Shown here: positions 21,945-28,554 of the stretch, in pieces
Layout of the letters: the number at the start of each line of letters is the position of its first letter
How positions within the stretch are numbered: the stretch's first letter is position 1
The notes under the pieces: generated by a model
What the model was told of the DNA's origin: nothing
What the model saw: the letters and a program-made list of their open reading frames with translations, nothing else
Database searches by the model: none
Made by a program: the position numbers and the translations under genes
Assembly (NCBI RefSeq): GCF_003721435.2
Contig: NZ_CP054585.1
Location: 1,798,001-1,862,000, forward strand
Length of the DNA stretch: 64,000 nucleotides
Direction of reading: 5' to 3'
DNA from: Halorubrum sp. CBA1229
Lineage (GTDB): Archaea > Halobacteriota > Halobacteria > Halobacteriales > Haloferacaceae

Positions 21945-23528
21945 TCACCCCGGCCGACACTCCCGCGTTCCGAGTTCGTTGACTCGGGCCTCTCCGCCGT
22001 CGGTCACGTCGACCTCGACCATCGAGACGGTCACCGACGCGACCGGGTCGCCGCCGCCCCCCGCAGAGCGGTCGCAGAGGTGCGCGAGAAGCGGGTCGAC
22101 GCGGCTCGGCGCCCCGTCGTCCGCCAACAGAGTGAGGTACTTCCGCCAGCGGGCGGTGGGGTACGCCCGCGCGTCCGACGGCGGCCGGTCGGCCGCGACG
22201 GGGTCGCCGTGCAGCGCGTCGAACGCGTCGCCGTCGGCGGTCGTCGCCGTCGCGAGCAGGAGCGCGTCCGTCGAGCTCGGGTCGGGCGCGAACATGTCCC
22301 AGCCGTGCTCGGCCGGGTCCGCCGTCGCCGCGACGGGCTCGGGCGCGTCGACGAGCCCGGCGGCCATCCCGTTCCACGCCAGCACCGACGCGAGCAGGAC
22401 GACGGCGACGAGGGCGACGGCGCGCTCGCGGGTCGCCCGGTCCGCCCGATCCGTCCGGTCTGTCCGGTCTGCCCGGTCCGCGAGGTGCGGCCCGCCGGGG
22501 ACCGACGCCGCCGCCCGCCGGAGCCGCCCGCTCGCCGAGCCGACGCCCTCCTCGACGCGGTCCCAGACGAACGACGGGAAAAAGGGGAGGAGGGCGGTCG
22601 CCGATATCAGCGGGAAGACGCCGAGCTGGAGCGTGAGCGTCATCGAGAGGTGCGCGGCGACGAGGCTCCCCGCGAGCGCCGCCCGGACGCGCCCGGCGGA
22701 TACGACGAGCAGCGGCGACGCGACGAGCAGCGCGAGCCAGCCGTAGGTGGCGGCCGCGTACAGCGCCGGCGCCTCGGGGAGGAGTCCGCCGACCGGCCCG
22801 TGGAGGTACGTGAGCCGGAACACCTGTTCGACCGCTTCGCCGCGCGGCCAGGCCGTCCCCCGGAGCTTCTCGATCCCGTTCGCGACGTAGACCGCGACCA
22901 CGACGGCCAACGGGAGCGCCGAGGCGGGCCCGACGAAGCGGTCGCTTCCCTGCTCTTGGCGGCCGGTCGTCCCGACTAGCGAAGCCCGGCGCCGGACGGC
23001 GTCGACCGACCACCGCGCGCCGAGCGGACAGAACAGCCCGGCCCCGAGCAGCTGCCAGAGCAGCTTGTCGCCCGCGTTGAGCACGAACGGGTTTCGCGCC
23101 TGCAGCGACGCGAGCAGGACCAGCGAGACCGCGGTCGCGAGCCGGGTCCGGTGGCCGACCGCGAGCGCGACGGCGGCGACCGCGGCGACGAGGAACAGCA
23201 GCGCGACGGGCCACGCCGCCCCCGAGAGCGCGTGCAGCGAGAGGCGAGCGGCGAGGGGGTACGTCTCGGCGAGCGCCGAGCGCGGGAACACCCCAGCGTC
23301 GGTATAAAAGGCCGTCAGGTTCCGGGCGCGCAGCCCGAGGTCGACGAGGAGCACGACCCCGAGCGCGACCCGGAACGCCGCCAGGGCGCGGCGGTCGATC
23401 CCGACGCGCGCCCCGACCGCGTTTCGGAGGCGGCGGCGGAGCGAGGGCCGCCCCGCGGGCTCCTCGTCGGTGCGCGGTTCGGGGTCCTCGGCGGGGGCGT
23501 CGGCTGTGCGTCCTCGGTGGTCGTCCAC
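21945..23528 (-). CDS. HTTM-domain membrane protein
   Basis: 527-aa polytopic protein. The segment RIDRRALAAFRVALGVVLL and the following DLGLRARNLTAFYTDAGVFP are the N-terminal signature of the HTTM domain, related to the membrane part of vitamin-K-dependent gamma-carboxylase. About nine hydrophobic segments are seen up to residue 390. The last 130 residues are soluble and possibly extracellular. The role in archaea is unknown. A short Thr-Asp-Arg-rich repeat (ADRTDRTDRADRA) lies in a loop near residue 365. Confidence 0.8.
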   Translation of the reverse strand: MDDHRGRTADAPAEDPEPRTDEEPAGRPSLRRRLRNAVGARVGIDRRALAAFRVALGVVLLVDLGLRARNLTAFYTDAGVFPRSALAETYPLAARLSLHALSGAAWPVALLFLVAAVAAVALAVGHRTRLATAVSLVLLASLQARNPFVLNAGDKLLWQLLGAGLFCPLGARWSVDAVRRRASLVGTTGRQEQGSDRFVGPASALPLAVVVAVYVANGIEKLRGTAWPRGEAVEQVFRLTYLHGPVGGLLPEAPALYAAATYGWLALLVASPLLVVSAGRVRAALAGSLVAAHLSMTLTLQLGVFPLISATALLPFFPSFVWDRVEEGVGSASGRLRRAAASVPGGPHLADRADRTDRTDRADRATRERAVALVAVVLLASVLAWNGMAAGLVDAPEPVAATADPAEHGWDMFAPDPSSTDALLLATATTADGDAFDALHGDPVAADRPPSDARAYPTARWRKYLTLLADDGAPSRVDPLLAHLCDRSAGGGGDPVASVTVSMVEVDVTDGGEARVNELGTRECRPG

Positions 23529-23670
23529 GACAGTGGCGACTCCCCGAGCGGCGGGAATAGTTCTTGCGGCGGCGGACCGGCTGCGGCCGACCGCGAGAGC
23601 CCCCCACCCGCTCGGCGGTATCGCCCGCCGCTTCCCGGGCGCTTATGCGGACGCCGCGGCACCCTCGCGT

Positions 23671-24609
23671 ATGTCACAGCGACCCTCGATGCGCGTCGTC
23701 GTCCACGGCGGCGCCGGCGGCGCGCCGGACGACCCGGCGCCGAGACAGGAGACGCTCGACGCGGCGGCCGAGCGCGGCGCGGACGCCGGAACTCCCCTCG
23801 ACGCCGTCGAGGCGGCGCTCGCGCCCCTCGAGTCGAGTCCCCGGTTCAACGCCGGCGTCGGCGGCGCGGTCCAGTCCGACGGCGTCGTCCGCACCGACGC
23901 CGGCGTGATGACCTCGGACCGGGAGATCGGCGCGGCCTGCTCGATGCCGGGCGTGAAGCACGCGGCGAGCGTCGCCCGCGTCGTCCACTCGGAGACGCCC
24001 CACGTCTTCGTTTCGGGCGAGCATGCGGTCGACCTCGCCGCCGACTTCGATGTCGAGACGGGCGTCGACCTGCTCACCGACGAGACGCGCGCCCGATACG
24101 AGGACGAGGACCCGCCGCGGGGCGGCCCGCGCGAGCACCTCGACTGGCTCGCGACGCGGTTCGGATCGGGCTCGGATCAGGCCGGCAGTGGGTTAGAGAA
24201 CGGCTCTCAGGGGGAGAGCGATTCGGGTCGCGCGCCCGACCACGACACGGTCGGTGCCGTGGCCTCGGACGGCGAGCGGTTCGCGGCGGCGACCTCCACG
24301 GGTGGCCGGTCGTTCGCCCTCGCGGGCCGGGTCGGCGACGTGCCGCAGGTCGGCTCGGGATTCTTCTGCACCGAGGCCGGCGGCGCGAGCGCGACGGGGG
24401 CCGGCGAGGACATCGCGCGCGTCACGCTCTCGCGGCGGGCCGTGGAGCATCTCGACGACGGGATCGGCGCGCAGGCGGCGGCCGACCGGGCGATCGAGGA
24501 GTTCGAGGAGATTACGGGCTCCGGAGCCGGCGTGATCGTCCTCGGGGAGGAGGGGGCCGGGAGCGCGTTCAACACGGACGGGATGCAGACGAGTATCGCT
24601 TATAAATAG
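23671..24609 (+). CDS. isoaspartyl peptidase / L-asparaginase family Ntn hydrolase
   Basis: 312-aa Ntn hydrolase precursor. Such proteins cleave themselves before a threonine that becomes the nucleophile; here this is Thr193 in HDTVGAVASDG, and TSTGG and GSGFFCTEAGG complete the substrate site. The family hydrolyses isoaspartyl dipeptides or asparagine. The start ATG 23671 follows a GCGCTTATG promoter-like element. The 25 residues before the cleavage site are a variable Gly/Ser/Asp linker. The stop codon lies inside a TTATAAATAG sequence directly beside the second dispersed element. Confidence 0.88.
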   Translation: MSQRPSMRVVVHGGAGGAPDDPAPRQETLDAAAERGADAGTPLDAVEAALAPLESSPRFNAGVGGAVQSDGVVRTDAGVMTSDREIGAACSMPGVKHAASVARVVHSETPHVFVSGEHAVDLAADFDVETGVDLLTDETRARYEDEDPPRGGPREHLDWLATRFGSGSDQAGSGLENGSQGESDSGRAPDHDTVGAVASDGERFAAATSTGGRSFALAGRVGDVPQVGSGFFCTEAGGASATGAGEDIARVTLSRRAVEHLDDGIGAQAAADRAIEEFEEITGSGAGVIVLGEEGAGSAFNTDGMQTSIAYK

Positions 24610-25032: not shown

Positions 25033-26064
25033 ATGGTCACGTTCCTCGCCGGCGGCACGGGGACGCCGAAGCTCCTCGACGGGGCGACCCGCGTCTGGGA
25101 CCCCGCCGAGGTCGCGGTCGTCGCCAACACGGGCGACGACGTCGAGCTCGGCGGCCACCTCGTCTGCCCCGACGTCGACACCGTGCTGTTCGCCGGCGGC
25201 GGCGTCCTCGACCGCGAGACGTGGTGGGGGATCGCCGACGACACCACCGAGACCCACGCGGAGCTGCGCCGGCTCGCGGACGAGGTCGGGATCGGGACGC
25301 AGCCGCGGTACCTCGACGCCGAGGCGCAGACGGCGGGCCGCGAGATCGCCCGCTGGCGGCGCTTCTCCGGCGTCGGCGAGTTCATGGAGATCGGCGACCG
25401 CGACCGCGCGGTCCACGTCACGCGCACGAGCCTGCTCGACGAGGGCCGCACGCTCACCGAGGCGATCCGAGCGCTCGCCGACGCCTTCGGCCTCGACGTC
25501 GACCTCCTCCCGATGTCCGACGACCCGGTCGCGACGCTGATACACACCGCGGCCGGCGAGACGATCCACTTCCAGGAGTACTGGGTCGCGCGCCGCGGCG
25601 AGCCGCCGGTCGACGACGTGGAGTTCCGCGGTGCGGACGACGCCGAGCCGACCGACGCCGTGCTGGACGCCCTCGCCGACCCGGTCGTTATCGGCCCCTC
25701 AAATCCCGTGACGAGCCTCGGCCCGATGCTCGCGCTCCCCGAGTTCGAGGCGGCGCTGTCGGCGACGCCGGTCGTCGCGGTCTCGCCGTTCGTCGGCGAC
25801 GAGGCCTTCTCCGGCCCGGCGGCCGACCTGATGGCCGGCGTCGGCCGCGACCCCTCGACCGCGGGCGTCGCCGCCGCGTACCCGTTTGCGGACGCGTTCG
25901 TCCTCGATACGGACGATCCGACCGAGCTCTCCGAGCGCCACGTCGAGCGCACCGACACCCGGATCGACGACGCCGACGACGCCGAGCGCGTCGCCCGAGC
26001 CTGCGAGCGCGCGCTGACAGCGGTGTCGGACGCGGCGGCGACCGACGCGGAGGTGGCGGAGTGA
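25033..26064 (+). CDS. cofD: 2-phospho-L-lactate transferase (coenzyme F420 synthesis)
   Basis: 343-aa CofD. It transfers the phosphoenolpyruvyl/lactyl-phospho unit from a GDP carrier to the deazaflavin Fo to make F420-0. [50 protein letters not shown], the central [18 protein letters not shown] and the [12 protein letters not shown] motif are all typical. It is the first gene of a four-gene set joined by 4-bp overlaps. A GATACAAAT element about 22 nt upstream suggests a leaderless start. Haloarchaea make F420, so the assignment fits. Confidence 0.95.
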
Positions 26065-26873
26065 CGGCAACCGACGATGGCGAGTCCCCCTCCCTCGTCG
26101 CCGCCAGCCTCAGCGGCGCGGCCGACGCCGACTGGGCGCGCGCCGCCGCCTCGCACGTCGACGCGGCGGTGCTGGGCGGGATCGCGCTCGACCCTGCGAG
26201 CCGGGCCGCGGCCCGCGATCTCGTCGCGCGCGGGCGCTCGGAGTTCCTCCCTGACGACCCGCTCGCGTGGATCGACCGACAGCTCGCCGCACTCGCCGGC
26301 GCGCCGGTCCGTCCCGGAGTCAACGTCCGGAGCGCGACCGTCGACCCGGTGCGCGAGGCGGCGGCGGTCTGCGCCGAGCACGGCGCCGTCTGCGAGGTCA
26401 ACGCTCACTGCCGACAGCCGGAACTCCGCGCGGTCGGCTGCGGCGAGTCCCTGCTCTCCGACCGCGACCGGCTGGCCGACTACGTCGCCGCCGCGGCCGG
26501 GACCGGTGCGACGACGAGCGTGAAGGTCCGCGCCGAGGTCCCCGACGTCGACCTCGTCGCCGTCGCCGACGCGGTCGCCGACGCGGGGGCGGAGTGGCTC
26601 CACGTCGACGCGATGGACTCGGAGGCCGTCGTCGGCGAACTGATCGCGGATGAGGGAGCCCGCGCCGACCTCACCGTGATCGCCAACAACGGCGTCCGGG
26701 GCCGGCGGACGGTCGCCGAGTACGCCGCGCACGGCGCCGACGCCGTCAGCGTCGGGCGGCCGACCGAGCACCCGGCGGAGCTCGCTCGCGTCGCCGAGGC
26801 GGTTCGCGCGTGGCGCGACGGGGAGCTCTCGATCGGCGAGCCGCCTGAGCGCCGACGGGAGGCGTCGCCGTGA
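26061..26873 (+). CDS. Dus-like TIM-barrel flavoprotein
   Basis: 270-aa protein related to tRNA-dihydrouridine synthases (MJ0144-like group). [20 protein letters not shown] carries the family's Asn and Cys region, [12 protein letters not shown] the FMN-contacting lysine, and [12 protein letters not shown] with [11 protein letters not shown] the phosphate-binding end of the barrel. It starts with GTG, overlapping the cofD stop codon. At 270 residues it lacks the C-terminal helical tRNA-binding domain of true Dus enzymes, so a small-molecule substrate is possible. Its tight coupling to cofD, citG-like and DUF447 genes also favours a coenzyme-related role; this is inference. Confidence 0.7.
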
Positions 26874-27856
26874 CGGCCGTCGACTCCCGCGCCCGCGATC
26901 CGGTCGACGACGCGACTCTCGCGCTCCTGCTCGAAGTCGCCGGCACCCCGAAACCGGGCAACGTCGACCGGCGGCGGGACCTGGACGACCTCCGGTTCGA
27001 GTCCTTTCTCGGCGGAGCGGTCGGCGCCCGCGACGGGCTCGAACTGGCCGCGAGCGACGAGGGGTCCGTCGGCGACGCCTTCGAGCGCGGCGTGGCGGGG
27101 ATGGCCGACCGCGCGGGAACGAACACCCAGTTCGGTTGTCTGCTGCTGCTCGTCCCGCTGCTCCGCGCGACCGTCGTGGGTTCGCCCGCGGGCGACGTGT
27201 CGCCCTCGGGGGATCTCGACCCGGACGCCGTCGACCGCGTGACCCGCGAGACCACCGTCGGCGACGCGGTCGCGTTCTACCGCGCCTTCGAGCGCGTCGA
27301 TGTCGCGGTCGCGGATCCGCCGGCGGACGCCGCCGAACTGGACGTGCGTCACGGGAGCGACGCGGCGCCGGCGCTCCGCGACCGGGAGCTGACGCTCCGA
27401 GACGTGATGGCGGTCTCGGCCGCCCCCGACGATCCGGACCGCGTTCCCGACCGCAACGCACAGGAGTGGGTCGAGGGGTTCCCGCGGACGTTCCGCGCCG
27501 CCGAGTGGATCCGCGCCGACGAGGGGCCGCTGACCGATCGAGCCGCGCGCGCCTTCCTCGGCCTGCTCGCGGCCGAGCCCGACACGCTGGTCGCCGCGAG
27601 CCACGACCCGGAGACGGCCCGCGAGGCGAGCGCACGGGCCGCCGCCCTGCTCGGCGGAGCGGACGACGGCGGTTCCACGGGTCCCCTCGACCCGAGCGAC
27701 GTCGACGCCGACGCCGTCCACGGGGCCGATCTCGACGCCGCCGAGGCGCTGGCGACGGCGTTCGTCGACGAGGGGATCAACCCCGGGACGACCGCGGACC
27801 TCACCTGCGCGGCGCTGTACGTCGCGCTCCGGCGCGGCGCGGAGGTGGCGCGGTGA
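26870..27856 (+). CDS. CitG/MdcB-like triphosphoribosyl-dephospho-CoA synthase family protein
   Basis: 328-aa protein. The N-terminal LLLEVAGTPKPGNVDRRRD and GTNTQFGCLLLLVPLL, plus the C-terminal DEGINPGTTADLTCAALY, are the core motifs of the CitG family, which attaches a ribosyl-triphosphate to dephospho-CoA. Haloarchaea have no citrate lyase or malonate decarboxylase acyl carrier genes here, so the true substrate is probably another cofactor. It overlaps both neighbours by 4 bp (ATGA with the Dus-like gene, GTGA with DUF447). Confidence 0.85.
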   Translation: MTAVDSRARDPVDDATLALLLEVAGTPKPGNVDRRRDLDDLRFESFLGGAVGARDGLELAASDEGSVGDAFERGVAGMADRAGTNTQFGCLLLLVPLLRATVVGSPAGDVSPSGDLDPDAVDRVTRETTVGDAVAFYRAFERVDVAVADPPADAAELDVRHGSDAAPALRDRELTLRDVMAVSAAPDDPDRVPDRNAQEWVEGFPRTFRAAEWIRADEGPLTDRAARAFLGLLAAEPDTLVAASHDPETAREASARAAALLGGADDGGSTGPLDPSDVDADAVHGADLDAAEALATAFVDEGINPGTTADLTCAALYVALRRGAEVAR

Positions 27857-28554
27857 CCGACGACGCGCCCGACGTGGGCCGCGGCGGGGCGGCCGACGGC
27901 GCCGACGCCGACGGCGTTGCGCCCGACGGCTGGCCGGTCGCGCTCCGCGGCGTCACCGAGTCGGTCGTGACGACGCTCGGCCCGAACGACCGCTGGAACG
28001 TCGCGGCGCTCGGGATCCACGCGCCGGCCGACCCCGGTGACCCCGTGACCGCGCGGACGTACGGGCGCACTCGGACGTGGCGGAACTTCACCGAGCGCGG
28101 CGGCGGGGTCGTCCAGTTCACGACCGACCCGCGCACGTTCGTCGACGCCGCGCTGACGGTCCGGGAGGTCGACGACCCCGTCCTCGAGACGGCCGACGCG
28201 TGGGTCGAGGTGACCGCCGAGGAGATCGGGAGCGAGACTGAGGGCGACACGACGATCCGGACGTGGGCGCTCGATCCCGTCGAGAGCGCGGTTCGCCGTG
28301 AGCGCGTGCCGACGATCAACCGCGGGTTCGGCGCGGTCGTCGACGCCACGGTGGCCGCCTCGCGGCTCGACGTGCCCGCGTTCGACACGGCGGACCTGCT
28401 CGGCCGGCTGGCGTACTTCGCGGACGTGGTCGACCGCTGCGGCGGTCCCGCCGAGCGCGAGGCGTTCGCCCGGATCGACGAGGCGACCGGGTGGCGGGCG
28501 CTCGCGGCGGCGGAGGGGACCGAGCGCGGGGGCGACGGCGACGACGAGCCCTGA
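27853..28554 (+). CDS. DUF447 family protein, probable FMN-binding split barrel
   Basis: 233-aa protein starting with GTG over the citG-like stop codon. After an acidic low-complexity N-terminus (about 28 residues), the sequence TESVVTTLGPNDRWNVAALGIHAP and ARTYGRTRTWRNFTERGGGVVQFTTDPRTFVDAAL is the DUF447 signature. A methanogen member binds FMN in a split-barrel fold. The reaction is unknown. Close coupling to cofD suggests a flavin- or deazaflavin-linked function. It ends the overlapping operon. Confidence 0.8.
   Translation: MTDDAPDVGRGGAADGADADGVAPDGWPVALRGVTESVVTTLGPNDRWNVAALGIHAPADPGDPVTARTYGRTRTWRNFTERGGGVVQFTTDPRTFVDAALTVREVDDPVLETADAWVEVTAEEIGSETEGDTTIRTWALDPVESAVRRERVPTINRGFGAVVDATVAASRLDVPAFDTADLLGRLAYFADVVDRCGGPAEREAFARIDEATGWRALAAAEGTERGGDGDDEP

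Follow-up and report, generated by a model that had tools for sequence, protein, structure and literature searches.

The cofD gene of Halorubrum sp. CBA1229, which encodes an enzyme of F420 synthesis, lies at the head of four overlapping genes in the stretch of DNA analysed here (the window; 64,000 nucleotides of contig NZ_CP054585.1). The three genes that follow it belong to families without a clear role in a haloarchaeon. This raises the question of whether the four products act together on one cofactor, or whether the operon combines functions of different origin. A sequence-only reading of the locus had suggested an unrecognised cofactor pathway or a modification of F420 or flavin.

Layout of the operon and gene identities

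The four-gene overlapping operon was confirmed, with all genes on the same strand and three 4-bp overlaps (Table 1). The first and third overlaps were correctly read earlier as GTGA, whereas the second, given as ATGA, is actually also GTGA. The third-position GC is 0.92-0.97 for each gene, as expected in a GC-rich haloarchaeon, and the four frames are real genes. As overlapping genes in prokaryotic operons most often share 4 bp, the tightness of the arrangement is by itself unremarkable; it is the conserved gene order, rather than the overlaps, that is the remarkable feature of the locus. A type 2 asparaginase-family gene (window 23470-24609) is encoded on the same strand, ~0.4 kb upstream of cofD.

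Table 1. Genes and overlaps of the cofD operon, in window coordinates.
Feature	Position	Strand	Description
cofD	25033..26064	+	343 aa; 2-phospho-L-lactate transferase, F420 synthesis; TIGR01819 equivalog
Dus-like FMN TIM-barrel ('archaeal Dus', MJ0144 family)	26061..26873	+	270 aa, GTG start
CitG-like, triphosphoribosyl-transferase family	26870..27856	+	328 aa, GTG start; PF01874
DUF447 flavin-reductase-like protein	27853..28554	+	233 aa, GTG start; PF04289 + PF20766
GTGA overlap, cofD/Dus-like	26061..26064	+	4 bp
GTGA overlap, Dus-like/CitG-like	26870..26873	+	4 bp
GTGA overlap, CitG-like/DUF447	27853..27856	+	4 bp

The cofD product matches the CofD model at the equivalog level (373 bits, cut-off 257). 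The second product scores 128 bits against TIGR00736 ('MJ0144 family Dus-like'), under the cut-off of 219, and judged by this score is a divergent relative of that family. The DUF447 product is above the cut-off for both PF04289 (85 bits) and PF20766 (57 bits), and solved structures are available for its relatives (2iml, 2ptf, 2nr4 and 3b5m).

The CitG-like product belongs to the same family as the triphosphoribosyl-dephospho-CoA synthases CitG and MdcB (182 bits to PF01874, cut-off 27). However, it reaches only 13.6 bits against TIGR03125 (cut-off 272) and 16.8 bits against TIGR03132 (cut-off 282), the CitG/MdcB equivalog models, and by model score the haloarchaeal form is a subfamily distinct from the CitG/MdcB of citrate and malonate lyases. 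Its NPGTxAD and K-x-G-N-V motifs are common to planctomycete and methylotroph members. CitG attaches a triphosphoribosyl group to dephospho-CoA, and a canonical enzyme would thereby supply the precursor for the acyl carrier of citrate or malonate lyase. While the PF01874 match is compatible with such a role here, the equivalog scores led us to reject a canonical CitG and the gene co-distributes with MptG (see below), making this role extremely unlikely. No lyase genes were recognised within the loci examined. The missing acyl carrier partner, remarked on earlier, is thus explained, because the subfamily is not that of the citrate/malonate-lyase CitG.

The Dus-like barrel

The barrel keeps the catalytic cysteine and lysine motifs of Dus enzymes, with NAHC instead of NxGC. 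The HxR motif of Dus is absent and HxD is invariant in its place; H116-C117, K155-x-R157 and H181-x-D183 are conserved in all 17 Dus-like sequences compared. The same replacement of HxR by HxD has been described for the 'archaeal Dus' subfamily, with which the barrel also shares NxHC and KxR (PMC3674756). It differs from that subfamily in lacking the C-terminal RNA-binding part, as had been recognised from the sequence (the Pfam match stops at 218 of 311), and in a gene context of cofactor synthesis. Most haloarchaeal forms are 242-285 aa long. The barrel would be expected from its family to bind FMN.

In methanogens and their relatives the same barrel occupies the same site upstream of CitG-DUF447, as a fusion to the methanogenesis marker 9 domain. 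Four scanned methanogen-type long forms and the Methanosaeta protein (L053) carry this domain (TIGR03277) at the C-terminus, with eight invariant cysteines in the methanogen-type long forms. It was not found in the haloarchaeal Dus-like forms, which differ from the methanogen fusion in lacking the eight-Cys domain and in having cofD in front. The marker 9 domain is lost in haloarchaea. The fusion was seen at the methanogen-type loci L043, L046 and L053; at the last, in Methanosaeta, the marker domain and the gene order are kept, and the barrel has diverged to the point of lacking the catalytic Cys region.

Conservation of gene order

To place the operon in an evolutionary context we mapped all four families in 119 genomes belonging to the organism's own phylum and counted direct neighbors. 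Where CitG and DUF447 are both present, CitG lies directly upstream of DUF447 in all 19 haloarchaeal genomes and in 79 of the 92 from other Halobacteriota; the Dus-like gene lies directly upstream of CitG in 16/18 and 44/59, respectively. In contrast, cofD is directly upstream of the Dus-like gene in 20 of the 21 haloarchaea with both, as against 1 of 59 other genomes. Outside haloarchaea the Dus-like–CitG–DUF447 block is therefore widespread with cofD elsewhere, and these counts identify it as an older archaeal block whose front was joined by cofD in haloarchaea. The genes are thus linked in far more than a handful of species, and the operon is a composite rather than a single F420 pathway. 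The cofD–Dus-like and CitG–DUF447 pairs lie apart in G032, G038, G309 and G361 (L049, L050, L088 and L092); they are on opposite strands ~5 kb apart in G032 and do not share one 14-kb stretch in G309 and G361.

Co-occurrence and coordinated loss of CitG, DUF447 and MptG

MptG (TIGR00144) is the first committed enzyme of methanopterin synthesis. Among 14 control genomes, MptG and DUF447 are present in an identical set of four (M. jannaschii, H. volcanii, S. acidocaldarius and M. acetivorans), and CitG is found in these four and E. coli only. Sulfolobus acidocaldarius and G007 possess MptG, CitG and DUF447 without cofD, and G016 has CitG and MptG without it.

Of 292 Halobacteria genomes, some of the sampled ones being drafts, 286 contain both DUF447 and MptG. 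DUF447 is missing from five (G008, G049, G104, G308 and G371), and MptG from the same five and from G218, a draft in 70 contigs in which CitG and DUF447 are retained (Fisher p 3.5e-10 for the DUF447/MptG association, with relatedness ignored). CitG is missing from exactly the same five among the 20 haloarchaea tested. These loss genomes span three genera (G008/G049; G104; G308/G371), two of which (g7 and g2) also include sampled members with the full gene set; hence the genes were apparently lost about three separate times. Within genus g7, the CitG-DUF447 segment measures 2.4 kb in G025, of which ~0.13 kb is left in G104 between collinear flanks, and in g2 a segment of ~2.0 kb has shrunk to ~0.4 kb, indicating that the pair was cleanly excised. 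MptG is unlinked, lying ~170 kb from the operon in Halorubrum sp. CBA1229, and is gone too in the loss genomes, in all five of which cofD still adjoins the Dus-like gene. This loss as a unit, with the cofD–Dus-like pair kept, divides the operon into two separable parts: cofD with the Dus-like gene, and CitG with DUF447, the latter coupled to MptG. CitG and DUF447 follow MptG, and the Dus-like gene is the only one in the operon that may belong with cofD.

Mch is kept in 5/5 loss genomes. As Mch stays when the module is lost, the haloarchaeal C1 cycle needs no CitG/DUF447/MptG module, and a role of the module in serving this cycle via Mch was rejected.

Bacterial and planctomycete contexts

For a scan of the wider genome collection we used a two-sequence DUF447 alignment, an eight-sequence alignment being too diverse; this yielded five true loci. 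A sixth match, in Chromatiales (L057; 22 bits, below cut-off), is probably an unrelated flavin reductase and was used solely as a lead into its phylum. In Rhodopirellula europaea (L052:9267-11544) pabA-like, DUF447 and MptG-like genes form a tight operon with 4-bp overlaps, an arrangement that hints at a role of DUF447 near the pABA/RFA-P step. The genome of this planctomycete also encodes CitG-like and Mch proteins.

DUF447 is above cut-off in 17 of 398 Pseudomonadota genomes. A 4-HFC-P-synthase-family gene occurs in all 17 of these loci and a TIGR00284 DHPS-like gene in 16 (figures that refer to clusters with named representatives); CitG is within four, and MptG lies at a contig edge in L104. 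CitG and DUF447 are thus found within the H4MPT clusters of methylotrophic proteobacteria, where DUF447 is beside the DHPS-like gene. The order in L106 is mch–MptN-like ligase–CitG, and in L098 CitG adjoins fae. As the published methylotroph order is mch-orf5-orf7-fae (PMC3615186) and orf5 is the methylofuran glutamate ligase (PMC8141765), CitG would correspond to orf7 of this 'archaeal-like' cluster, an assignment made by gene order rather than from a sequence named orf7.

MptG in folate-using haloarchaea

Haloarchaea reportedly rely on tetrahydrofolate, and a 2021 annotation review holds methanopterin-specific enzymes to be absent from them and the MptG homolog HVO_2628 probably to make no RFA-P (PMC8305020). 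The module is dispensable in haloarchaea, and their MptG has Asn in place of the Asp19 of the methanogen enzymes in 8/8 aligned sequences. Asp19 matters for the activity of the M. thermautotrophicus enzyme, in which D19N retains partial activity, and Arg26, the pABA-binding arginine (PMC6787355), is kept in all eight. This combination points to a change in aryl substrate or in rate. The haloarchaeal proteins (L112:7077-8078, L116-L118, L121-L124) share with this Asn a Tyr for Asp two residues after Arg26, a change near the pABA site, again in 8/8. In the organism's own genome, genes for a serine hydroxymethyltransferase, a TbsP-like regulator and a YcaO protein are located upstream of MptG (L112:2038-6098).

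Functional interpretation

Taken together, the CitG-like gene, DUF447 and the unlinked MptG probably constitute one module, a branch of methanopterin type for the synthesis of a ribosylated aryl compound. The observed gene content, gene order, coordinated loss, and bacterial and planctomycete contexts point to this branch; its chemical steps and product are predictions from the fold families and from the general structure of methanopterin. MptG would join an aromatic acid to PRPP, as is known for its family. The DUF447 flavoprotein might perform a reduction that, for example, converts the ribofuranosyl ring into an open ribityl chain. ATP might serve the CitG-like enzyme as the source of a (tri)phosphoribosyl group, transferred as CitG does to dephospho-CoA; methanopterin-type molecules would thereby gain their second ribose phosphate, which is alpha-linked. 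The haloarchaeal product could be a non-essential relative of methanopterin, with folate serving C1 transfer. The Dus-like barrel would stand apart from the module, kept with cofD, and in haloarchaea may act on an F420 precursor. We counted against the methanopterin-type branch the reported use of folate together with the published view of MptG (PMC8305020), the retention of Mch, and Asn19. A further point against it is that studies of methanopterin have proposed that PRPP donates the ribosyl group, which would require no CitG-type enzyme.

If all four genes were to modify F420 or its flavin precursor, the overlap of cofD with the Dus-like gene would be accounted for, as would the presence of cofD at <=10 kb from CitG and DUF447 in 18 of 19 haloarchaea with both and its proximity to CitG-DUF447 in a few other lineages (G001, G006, G010, G019 and G024). 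We nevertheless consider this very unlikely, as S. acidocaldarius has the module without cofD, five haloarchaea lost the module yet keep cofD, cofD adjoins the block in few non-haloarchaeal genomes, and the methylotroph and planctomycete context is that of H4MPT. On the basis of the losses and the cofD-less genomes we rejected the modification of F420 by CitG and DUF447, which follow MptG instead. Of the two functions originally proposed for the locus, a cofactor branch unrecognised in haloarchaea is hence upheld and the modification of F420 or flavin is not. That the genes are decaying, unselected remnants of the methanopterin pathway of a methanogen ancestor would fit the thought descent of haloarchaea from methanogens (PMC7599335), the Dus-like–CitG–DUF447 block common to methanogens and the dispensability of the module in three genera. 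Such decay is highly unlikely in view of the presence of the set in ~98% of the 292 genomes with intact frames and conserved motifs, the invariant CitG-DUF447 adjacency in haloarchaea, and the all-or-none loss at two unlinked loci; retention at this level and loss as a unit argue for a product.

A further reading concerns one gene only and is compatible with the methanopterin-type branch: the Dus-like barrel could be the dehydro-F420-0 reductase still missing in archaea ('CofX'). As an FMN ene-reductase encoded beside CofD, it would reduce the enolpyruvyl side chain when CofC and CofD start from PEP. Such a reductase has been predicted for archaea and not identified (PMC6450877). The barrel is directly 3' of cofD in 20/21 haloarchaea with both and still adjoins it in the five genomes without CitG, DUF447 and MptG; it retains the catalytic Cys and Lys; and cofD is present in 80/80 genomes with the barrel. 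On the other hand, the barrel is undetectable in 35 of 115 cofD genomes, sits with CitG-DUF447 outside haloarchaea (44/59), is fused to marker 9 in the non-haloarchaeal forms scanned and lacks the Cys region in Methanosaeta. Moreover, archaeal CofC/D pairs prefer 2-phospholactate in vitro, and a reductase may therefore be unneeded (PMC8764529). We regard this assignment as possible though doubtful. The conjunction, in which haloarchaea make an undescribed methanopterin-related ribosylated aryl or pterin cofactor via MptG, CitG-like and DUF447 proteins beside folate and in which the barrel is also the dehydro-F420-0 reductase, is unlikely.

Implications

As members of a methanopterin-type branch, DUF447 and the archaeal CitG subfamily are connected with steps in the synthesis of methanopterin that still lack an assignment; a 2011 inventory estimated that seven proteins were still unknown (PMC3087415). 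Encoded next to CofD, the Dus-like barrel is a candidate for catalysing the side-chain step of archaeal F420, which is disputed. The annotation question of what the MptG homolog does in a folate-using haloarchaeon (PMC8305020) becomes directly testable, since the three genes are predicted to share a phenotype and natural knock-outs exist.
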